DNA from: Tubulanus polymorphus
Lineage: Eukaryota; Nemertea; Palaeonemertea; Tubulaniformes; Tubulanidae
Assembly: GCF_964204645.1 (NCBI RefSeq)
Contig: NC_134032.1
Span: 11,216,275 to 11,280,274, forward strand
Direction: 5' to 3'
Length of the DNA: 64,000 bases
The position numbers and the translations under genes were made by a program. How positions within the stretch are numbered: position 1 is the first letter of the stretch; each line of letters opens with the position of its first letter. A model generated the notes under the pieces. That model made no database searches. It was not told the origin of the DNA and worked only from the letters and a program-made list of their open reading frames with translations. Positions 37,486 through 44,143 of this stretch are shown here, piece after piece.

Positions 37486-39754
37486 ATGGACGAATCGTAC
37501 GTTGTCGGGGCGTTCACTGAAATAAAGAAATACCATAAATTCGATTTTAATTTAAAGAAAGAGCAGGTAAATCGAAATAATTTCATCCCGGCCTCAAACT
37601 ATTGTTTTGAAATTTTGTGATTAAAACCTAGCATATCGTGTAATACGGTGTTCATTAATTAAAACCGACGCGCCGATGTAGCAATTCTATGATTTGCAGT
37701 CACAAATTGGGACATTTGAAATCTATTTTCTTTCCACAAGGTAATTTTGTTAACCAAATTATGTGAGAAGAAAAGTACGTTCGGTGTGTTGCCAACTGGG
37801 TATGGCAAGAGTATGTGTTTTATTTTGGCACCGTTAATCATGGATAAGGTATAGACTTGGTTACTCGTTTCCATCCGATTAACAGTGGTCTACCCAGCAT
37901 TTGAAAAAAATTTCAAGGTTCACTCTTTACTTAGATAAATCCATCGAATGCACCACACATCGCATTGGTAGTAAGTCCATTAAGAAGCATCATGAAGGAT
38001 CAGGATGTGTTTTGCAGACGTCACGGAATTAAATCGGGCGTCATTACAAAGAAAGAGGAAATGACCGATGAAACTGTTTCTGGTGAATACATACCTTCAC
38101 AATATTATGCAATAATAATTCTGTCAAATGAGATTATGAGATTATGAGATAGAAATCTATGTATTGCAGATATTTACAATGGAAAACGAACGATTCTTTT
38201 TGCCAGCCCAGAAGTCTTGGAGCAACAGTCTTGGAGAAAAATGCTGTTAACCAAAAAGTACCAAGCAAGCTTGTGTCTATTATGTTTTGATGAGGCACAT
38301 TGCGTATCTAATTGGTAAACTGCCATCCAATATATATATATATATATATATATATATATATATATATATATATATATATATATATATATATATATATATA
38401 TATATATATATATATATATATATATATATATATATATATATATATACACAGGGGTGGAAACTTCCGTCCAGAGTATCGTTCTGTTTCGTCGTTGACGAGC
38501 CTTACGACCGTCCCCATTTTATGGTTGACAGCAACGTGTACGTCAAAGATGATTGCAGAGATCCTGAACGTTTTTAATTTTGAATTGAAAGATGTCGAAA
38601 TGGTAGCCGTAATCCCCGACAGGTAGAAAACAAAAGAAACAAAAGAAAGTAACATGTGTGCATATTATGATGAATTAAACAAACTATGATTTATTGTTGA
38701 AACTTTACATTACAGGCCGAATATTTTCCTGAATTTTAAAAGTGTCGCAAGAATGTCATTTGAAGAAGAATTGTCCTTGTATATAGAGCATTTATCAGAA
38801 AAACAGCTGGACGCTAAAAAATGCATCATTTACTGCAGGTCTGAGCTTTCTTGAAACTAGCCCTACGTTTTGATTAAAGATAATCATTATTATCATCAAA
38901 TGATGATAATAATGATTATCTTTAATCAAAACGTAGGGCCTTAAAAAGTATTAACAGATGCCCAATCGAATCATCCTAAGATAATTTTTTTCTCTCGCAG
39001 ATCAATAGACTGTGTGGGTAAGATTTATTTACATATGTTAGAGAGATTGGGCGCAAGAGCTTTTGTTGGCGAACATATAGTTAAAAACCGATTGATTGAC
39101 CAGTATCACAGCGTAGTAGATACAGATACGGAAAAGAGAATCTTGGATACGTTTCCGTTAGTAACGAGCACGATACGTTGTTTGATATGCACAGTTGCGT
39201 TCGGAATGGGTGTTCAGGTAATGAGCCGTCTCGGAGTGTCACGGTCTCAACTGTTCCATGCGAGGTTTACTGTACCAACCTGTACCAACGCGGTGGCATA
39301 AACATTCAATTGCCTTCAGGAAATCTATATGAAAAAAAACATATATTTGAAAGTAGATATCAAATATTTTTAGGTACCGGATATTGATATGGTCATACAC
39401 TGGGGAACACCAAAAGACATCCTGTCGTACTGGCAGGAAGTTGGAAGATGTGGGAGAGATGGACGAATCGCGGAAGGTCACTTGCTAGCGTTTTTGCCCT
39501 CTCTGAATAGAAAGCGGACAGAAGTTGAGATGATCGAAATGGTGAATCAAGTTAAAGATGGGAAGTGTCTCCGTTTAGCTGTTCTGGAAGCTCTTGTTAC
39601 TCCCGGAATGGACAAAAAATATCTCGAAACATTAAAGAATAGACCTAAATGTGGCAACGGAATATGCGGACTATGTAGCTGTTGCACAACGTGTAAAAAT
39701 TCATGTAAATGTAACGATATATCAGATGTAGATATGATGAATCTAAAAATCTAA
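37486..39754 (+). CDS. RecQ-like DNA helicase with cysteine-rich tail
   Basis: Eight exons join in frame: 37486-37566, 37741-37848, 37935-38082, 38170-38314, 38452-38622, 38716-38838, 39001-39217 and 39374-39754, giving 457 residues. All superfamily-2 RecQ motifs are present in order: FNLKKEQ (motif 0), LPTGYGKS (Walker A), [11 protein letters not shown] (DEAH), WLTATCTS (III), CIIYCRS (IV), [13 protein letters not shown] (V), and [10 protein letters not shown] (VI). The C-terminus is not a standard RQC/HRDC. It is a short cysteine cluster, [18 protein letters not shown], likely zinc binding. RecQ enzymes unwind DNA 3' to 5'. The start at 37486 is one choice; an in-frame ATG at 37438 is another. 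The gene ends 275 bp from the opposing DUF6589-type gene. It is shorter and odder than host BLM, WRN, RECQ1 or RECQ5, so it looks like an element-borne or lineage-specific RecQ. Confidence 0.92.
38315..38451 (+). repeat. Intron made almost wholly of (TA)n
   Basis: The 137-bp intron between helicase exons 4 and 5 starts GTAAACTGCCATCCAA. It then has about 58 TA units (38331-38446) and ends TACACAG. It splits the codon for W in DEAHCVSNW. ORFs reading Y-I repeats across it are artefacts. Confidence 0.95.
38860..38939. repeat. 80-bp palindrome with perfect 39-bp arms
   Basis: The arms GCCCTACGTTTTGATTAAAG ... and its exact complement meet at a two-base centre (AA, 38899-38900). There is no mismatch over 39 pairs. 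It lies in the intron between helicase exons 6 and 7. It may be a fold-back MITE; no coding sequence. Confidence 0.95.
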
Positions 39755-39796
39755 TGAATATTGAATAGATTATCCCCCTGGTAGGCAACACTGGGT

Positions 39797-43000: not shown

Positions 43001-44143
43001 CTTGCTGCCTGCATCCACTTCGCCACATCTGAAGAGAATTGATTTCCTTCAAAAAACGAACTTTTCTGCAATTTCTAGAGTCTAGAATTGTTGACACTAC
43101 GAACCCGAAGCGGTTATCCGGTGTTTGTGAATTTCTATGAATAAAAATCACTAAAATGTTACTATTGAATGCTTGAGGAAAAAAAACAGCAAACTTCAGA
43201 TCTCATACCGTTTTCCTGCCATTAACGATAACAATATACTTGTTAATGCGGGCATTGATCCTTTGATAGCGCCGACTGTTTCAGACCACGAAAACTGTTC
43301 CATATTTTCAAGCGAGGCTTCGTCAAAAAGTGGCGATTTTGTTTGCATGAAGGCCTGCTTCTCTTTCTTGATGAGTATACTTACTACAGCAAGTAGCTGA
43401 ATAAATGCAACCTTACTCTTTTTTAAAAGTAACAATATCGCTCCTTTATAATTCGAGTGGCCGATCATTTTTTGGGCCTGGTGTCTGAAGTTTTTCTGGA
43501 ATTGATATAATATATGATATGTGTACATACCATTACATTTGATTTTAATCTAAGAACTATATAGCCCATTGGTCTTAGTCAATTTCAGAAAGGCCTGATT
43601 ATTTCAGGTACAATCTGAACTCAAATGAATAGTCTATCCTACCACAGAGATTTTTGTGGAAAAACCAGCAGCATCTCCTCCGCCTTGTTCAACACTTATT
43701 CGTTTTGGAAGCCTAGACGTGGAGCATTCAGGTGAATTGTGTAGAGATCGTTTTGTTCCCCGATTGAATACCGGTATCGAATTATTTCTAGACTGAATTT
43801 CAACTTGAAATAAACAAAGTTTTGCGAAATAAGATCGTGAAATGATTCACTTGATAAACATTTTTCTGTGTTTGAAAAGTAATTGATTAACTTATTTTGG
43901 AAACTCACCTTTGATCTCATTTAATTCTCTTGTTTTTTTACTATATGCTTCTAAAAGTTTAAAACATGTGTAACAAACGAATTCCTTTTCGGGGTGAAGA
44001 CAAAATCCGTATTCCAAGCAGACCCTTATTACTGAAAAACCCTTAGCAATCTCACGTGTTTTGTGGAATCTTTTCCACCCTTTCTGCTTAGCTTCGAAAT
44101 TGCCGCCGCAAAATGCGCACTCGGAAGGCGACGAAGGTGCCAT
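40029..44143 (-). CDS. DUF6589-type protein with N-terminal zinc motif and double PHD finger; frameshifted near the end
   Basis: Fourteen exons on the minus strand: 44143-43909, 43803-43643, 43495-43209, 43134-43002, 42922-42803, 42714-42681 (34 bases), 42577-42246, 42165-41911, 41825-41706, 41629-41431, 41329-41066, 40988-40761, 40686-40555 and 40461-40029. All phases match, about 977 residues. The N-terminus has CAFCGG and CYTCFKLLEAY (zinc motif). A middle block has CWDNVQK, CHGDGMTVERSKSASRARMG, RLEGLTVVPQEFHKRGI, and DRGTLFHMKNVFHHKRLKKD, which I recognise as DUF6589 type, a multicopy family in invertebrates and fungi. Two PHD fingers follow (FYCLCEE ... WWCCKEC, then FCVCKT ... WFCSEMC). 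In the last exon the frame hits a stop at 40306-40304. Another frame carries on coherently (DEYVIDWNDLERAE to DALIQLR, stop at 40029), so one base has probably been lost near 40318. The function is unknown; a transposase-like role is a guess. Confidence 0.8.

Follow-up and report, generated by a model that had tools for sequence, protein, structure and literature searches.

The two convergent genes studied here, which encode a RecQ-family helicase and a DUF6589 protein, form a DNA transposon, a conclusion that is strongly supported, and the locus is most probably a copy of a new family within the helicase-encoding AcademH lineage. It lies in a window of 64,000 nt from Tubulanus polymorphus (NC_134032.1, 11,216,275-11,280,274, forward strand), which is the whole stretch of DNA that was analysed and from whose start all unlabelled positions are counted. 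An earlier note on this DNA had left the choice between a DNA transposon and a domesticated gene pair; we favour the transposon because the locus has defined ends and a 9-bp target duplication, and because another copy of the pair and numerous non-autonomous copies exist. New in this system are, as far as can be judged, the likely role of DUF6589 as transposase, the ING-like PHD finger inside it and the fact that both genes read through. Since ordinary splicing gives both genes continuous reading frames, the window copy may be autonomous.

The transposon is 7463 bp long (37114-44576), starts with TTCACC and ends with GGTGAA. Its left terminus (37114-37119, plus strand; TTCACCAAG) forms an inverted match with the right end at 8 of 9 positions, the right terminus (44571-44576, minus strand; CTGGGTGAA) being the inverse of the left TTCACC. 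Both termini are directly abutted by an exact 9-bp target-site duplication, AAATTGAAC, located at 37105-37113 on the left and at 44577-44585 on the right, the latter border being the point where the second copy diverges. On the given strand this 9-bp sequence occurs just twice in the 64-kb window, each time next to an element end. Similarly, a scan for end pairs around both genes (31.5-37.5 kb on the left and 44.1-50 kb on the right, with 8 bp or more of direct repeat and 4 bp or more of inverted end) returned eight candidate pairs, among which only 37114/44576 reaches a 9-bp direct repeat together with 6-bp inverted termini. The TTCACC/GGTGAA ends and the two flanking copies of AAATTGAAC represent the inverted termini and target-site duplication that define a class II DNA transposon. 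It had been stated earlier that no terminal repeats or target duplications had been found at this locus; both exist (37105-37119 and 44571-44585) and are situated just outside the interval then described (37486-44143). A giant element, likewise suggested at that time, was rejected, as the unit measures 7.5 kb and has mapped ends.

Past the first 6-9 bases, neither end of the element is an inverted copy of the other, with the exception of an internal inverted repeat, whose arms at 37226-37261 (plus strand) and 44372-44407 (minus strand) are identical in 28 of 36 ungapped columns and reach a gapped score of 42, compared to a maximum of 30 among 50 shuffles. The left end can additionally be folded into a sub-terminal hairpin with a 13-bp stem (37124-37157, plus strand), at -21.7 kcal/mol for the first 60 bases, a value obtained with RNA parameters and without a shuffle control. 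To the left of the element, an inverted repeat-like stretch was recognized by eye at 36592-36760 (CAGGGGCTC...GAGCCCCTG), which is perhaps another small repeat.

Searches of the genome with the right and the left end yielded 398 and 271 candidates, respectively, which are first-look counts and not confirmed copies. Among the 40 matches listed for the right end, 36 of the 39 that are not the query itself stop at 44576/44577 (query position 433 or 434), and the 40 listed for the left end include 39 that are not the query itself, of which 38 begin between query positions 210 and 215, where 215, i.e. 37114, was expected. The common outer edges that an alignment of copies had been expected to reveal are indeed present, with matches to either end stopping at the element borders. 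Within the matches listed, 26 of the 38 right-end places have a partner of like orientation among the 39 left-end places, at a spacing of 365-386 bp in 25 cases and 628 bp in one, and the other 12 right-end places have no left-end partner among these matches. The paired ends delimit elements that are about 630 bp long, the ten measured ones ranging from 622 to 631 bp.

Target duplications were counted in ten two-ended non-autonomous copies, which were kept from 16 loci (L042-L057) after leaving out L046 (left end not located), L057 (right end not located), L051 (the same place as L044), as well as L042, L043 and L050, which represent the window copy and copy 2. The duplication is an exact 8 bp in seven copies, an exact 9 bp in two, and matches at 7 of 8 positions in one, while 90 cross-copy comparisons reach 3 bp at most. 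The ten copies are 90-100% identical to each other (mean 94%). As expected of a class II transposon, the genome contains several copies that lie at different sites and have their outer edges in common. A right-end match close to the window copy was also observed at C8:11294150-11294400, 13.9 kb past the end of the window.

The two genes are present once more, in a damaged state, at C10:5272196-5277795 (copy 2). It matches the window from 38450 on, its similarity ends at 44577, and it lacks the helicase stretch equivalent to window positions 39141-39636. A search for the left end of copy 2 gave nothing that convincingly matches its right end (best score 26). In DUF6589 exons 1-14 (first model), 47 of 2673 positions differ between the two copies, and in the introns 25 of 1134. 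The damage to the DUF6589 gene of copy 2 comprises exon insertions of 1, 4 and 3 bp, one stop among the compared codons, and the loss of 4 bp and 1 bp from the last exon, with no length difference at the 80-bp intron that precedes it.

The earlier note had anticipated that the gene pair might recur elsewhere in the genome. This is borne out by copy 2 and by a convergent helicase at two of the nine diverged DUF6589 places examined (C8:3320250-3324502 and C1:16675696-16681343); it does not hold for the others, of which one (C2:17.86 Mb) has a helicase beside DUF6589, but in divergent orientation, and the remaining ones have no helicase within the DNA examined, which was of varying reach. At the relatives on C8 (3.32 Mb) and C1 (16.68 Mb), the end-pair scan yielded no candidate whose inverted ends exceed 3-4 bp.

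The helicase gene (37486-39754, plus strand) consists of eight exons with GT-AG borders (37486-37566, 37741-37848, 37935-38082, 38170-38314, 38452-38622, 38716-38838, 39001-39217 and 39374-39754), which encode 457 aa without internal stop, including a Cys-rich tail. Its product matches the Pfam families DEAD (9.2e-18) and Helicase_C (5e-16), finds its best counterpart among solved structures in WRN (6.9e-46), and resembles the NCBIfam profiles TIGR01389 recQ (3.1e-63) and TIGR00614 recQ_fam (1.3e-62), in both cases below the curated cut-offs. A Walker A motif (GYGKS) is found at 47, a DEAH box at 153 and a 10-residue motif at 352; Walker A, DEAH box and RecQ-family profile match are together the features by which a RecQ helicase is recognized.

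Several small repeats were noticed in and next to this gene. Past the helicase stop, a 21-bp stretch (39833-39853) repeats, at 18 of 21 positions, the last-exon sequence coding for VTPGMD; a Cys-rich reading frame continues after this repeat, possibly as a decayed or alternative last exon, and the region is also present in copy 2 (L029, about 9568-9590). Inside helicase introns, there are a palindromic 80-bp stretch (38860-38939), which matches copy 2 in both orientations, and a TA microsatellite (38330-38446), just beyond which, at 38450, the similarity to copy 2 begins.

The DUF6589 gene, encoding the putative transposase, occupies 44143-40029 on the minus strand and is convergent with the helicase gene, the two stops being 274 bp apart. 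According to the best model it has 15 exons (44143-43909, 43803-43643, 43495-43209, 43134-43002, 42922-42803, 42714-42681, 42577-42246, 42165-41911, 41825-41706, 41629-41431, 41359-41066, 40988-40761, 40686-40555, 40461-40324 and 40243-40029), of which exons 1-13 have AG/GT borders, and encodes 960 aa without stop. The previously described arrangement of two multi-exon, convergent genes is thereby confirmed, with 8 and 15 exons and with matches to DEAD/Helicase_C and PF20231. Four GT-AG introns, of 38, 56, 80 and 128 bp, would join exon 14 in frame to the last open piece of the gene; we chose the 80-bp intron (GT-AG, 40323-40244) for the best model because its length is within the range of the 13 other introns of the gene (71-147 bp). 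This intron keeps the frame and accounts for what had been considered a frame slip near 40319, which was rejected. The last exon belongs to the DUF6589 protein, since a match to it (37% over 54 residues) is encoded by a diverged relative located on C3.

The partner protein matches Pfam DUF6589 (PF20231) at residues 377-867 with an E-value of 3.5e-31 and 108.8 bits, well above the family cut-off of 27. Pfam assigns no function to this family, whereas here it is part of a mobile element whose ends are mapped, and PHD fingers interrupt the domain. These fingers are encoded at approximately 40950-41450 (minus strand), inside the DUF6589 match, which extends on both sides of them. Two PHD fingers had been reported earlier: the first stands as an ING-type finger by its similarity to structurally solved PHD fingers (1e-7 to YNG1), and the second is a weaker match (0.0061 to YNG2). 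Against Pfam, the best values are 0.028 and 0.18, below the cut-offs.

Conserved acidic residues are distributed on either side of this insertion, and the PHD region sits between the second and the third of the candidate acids. The aspartates of CWDN and HGDG occupy positions that are conserved in most of the DUF6589 relatives seen. Acids common to the relatives are D in CWDN/FGDN/YGDN, D in HGDG/WGDG/GGDV (with WGVG in one relative), E in VERS/CERH/NERA, and the acids of REGDG/RENDG; which three of them might form the active site is a guess. A search of solved structures with a DUF6589 profile (alignment A2, six pieces) returned nothing credible (best 0.12), viral contigs scanned with DUF6589 pieces contained no relative, and a PHROGs search found no family.

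We infer that DUF6589 is likely the transposase of the element, and the following mechanism can be envisaged. The DUF6589 protein would bind the element ends, cut them, and join them to the two strands of the target DNA at points separated by 8-9 bp, with CWDN (D330), HGDG (D477) and REGDG (E765 or D767) as candidate metal-binding acids. The RecQ helicase would either open the (hairpin-bearing) ends or process the product of strand transfer. ING fingers recognize histone H3 that is methylated at lysine 4, and insertion may be directed by the PHD finger towards chromatin bearing histone marks. The orphan family DUF6589 is in this way tied to a mobile element whose ends are mapped and which has many non-autonomous derivatives, and two ideas become directly testable, namely the role of DUF6589 as transposase and the guidance of its insertions by a PHD finger. 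Furthermore, the element adds to the DNA transposons in which a RecQ helicase is found.

Kojima is said to have described AcademH in 2020 (Mob DNA 11:15) as the helicase-encoding lineage of Academ, occurring in animals and fungi. By its gene content and the length of its duplications the present family goes with AcademH in its way of working, and it is most likely a member. Like AcademH, the element is a DNA transposon that encodes a helicase, here of the RecQ family, beside a (putative) transposase. Its target duplications, of about 9 bp, are near those of AcademH in length, but the correspondence is not complete: they measure 9 bp in the window copy and 8-9 bp in the non-autonomous copies, whereas those of AcademH are 9 or 10 bp, and those of AcademX 3 or 4 bp, in the excerpt of PMC10045372. 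AcademH helicases are also reported from fungi (excerpt of PMC10799480), and Academ elements, with a mean length of 5565 bp, are described as expanded in bivalves (excerpt of PMC10294476). In view of its 7.5 kb, its helicase and its 8-9-bp duplications, a combination that fits AcademH, the earlier suggestion of an undescribed element is probably wrong.

It seems unlikely that the element represents instead a separate, unnamed superfamily of DNA transposons with a DUF6589 transposase, whose carriage of a helicase is merely convergent with AcademH. Both the helicase cargo and the duplication length are close to AcademH, and the span of AcademH over animals and fungi is the same as the one given for DUF6589 in the earlier note. 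In favour of such a superfamily are the exact duplications of the non-autonomous copies, which are 8 bp in seven of nine and not 9-10 bp, and the literature searched, in which DUF6589 is not named and the sole match to PF20231 is a chance string in an optics paper; DUF6589 may, for its part, be known as a transposase elsewhere. It would also be in keeping with the acquisition of a RecQ helicase by another superfamily, KolobokH, as presented in the excerpt of PMC9587614. A more far-reaching proposal sees in DUF6589 a cut-and-paste transposase superfamily in its own right, separate from Academ, in which the catalytic domain contains a PHD pair that reads chromatin and a RecQ partner is obligatory. 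Most DUF6589 proteins found in animals and fungi would then be encoded by transposons or by genes domesticated from them; we hold this to be equally unlikely.

A domesticated host gene pair is far less probable still. Although splicing lets both genes read through, and the dN/dS of DUF6589 between the two copies is about 0.5 (16 silent and 30 replacement changes), a weak signal that equally fits selection on the transposon before insertion, the locus bears an exact target duplication and transposon ends, a second, truncated copy is present on another contig, and the same ends recur in many copies. Least probable of all is a Kolobok-type element of the KolobokH kind. KolobokH is a DDD/E-type transposon that carries a RecQ helicase and, in the excerpt of PMC9587614, is limited to fungi, but the Kolobok duplications given there are 4-bp TTAA, whereas the duplications of the present element and its copies are 8-9 bp long and differ in sequence.

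If the preferred assignment to AcademH is right, the kind of element is already known, and the value of the present locus lies mainly in naming DUF6589. In the surroundings of the transposon, the Rag GTPase gene that the earlier note had placed beside the pair was confirmed at 31433-33411. Further away in the window, at 11580-17759, long open frames resemble by eye a receptor with CUB, LDL-receptor, leucine-rich and seven-helix parts.
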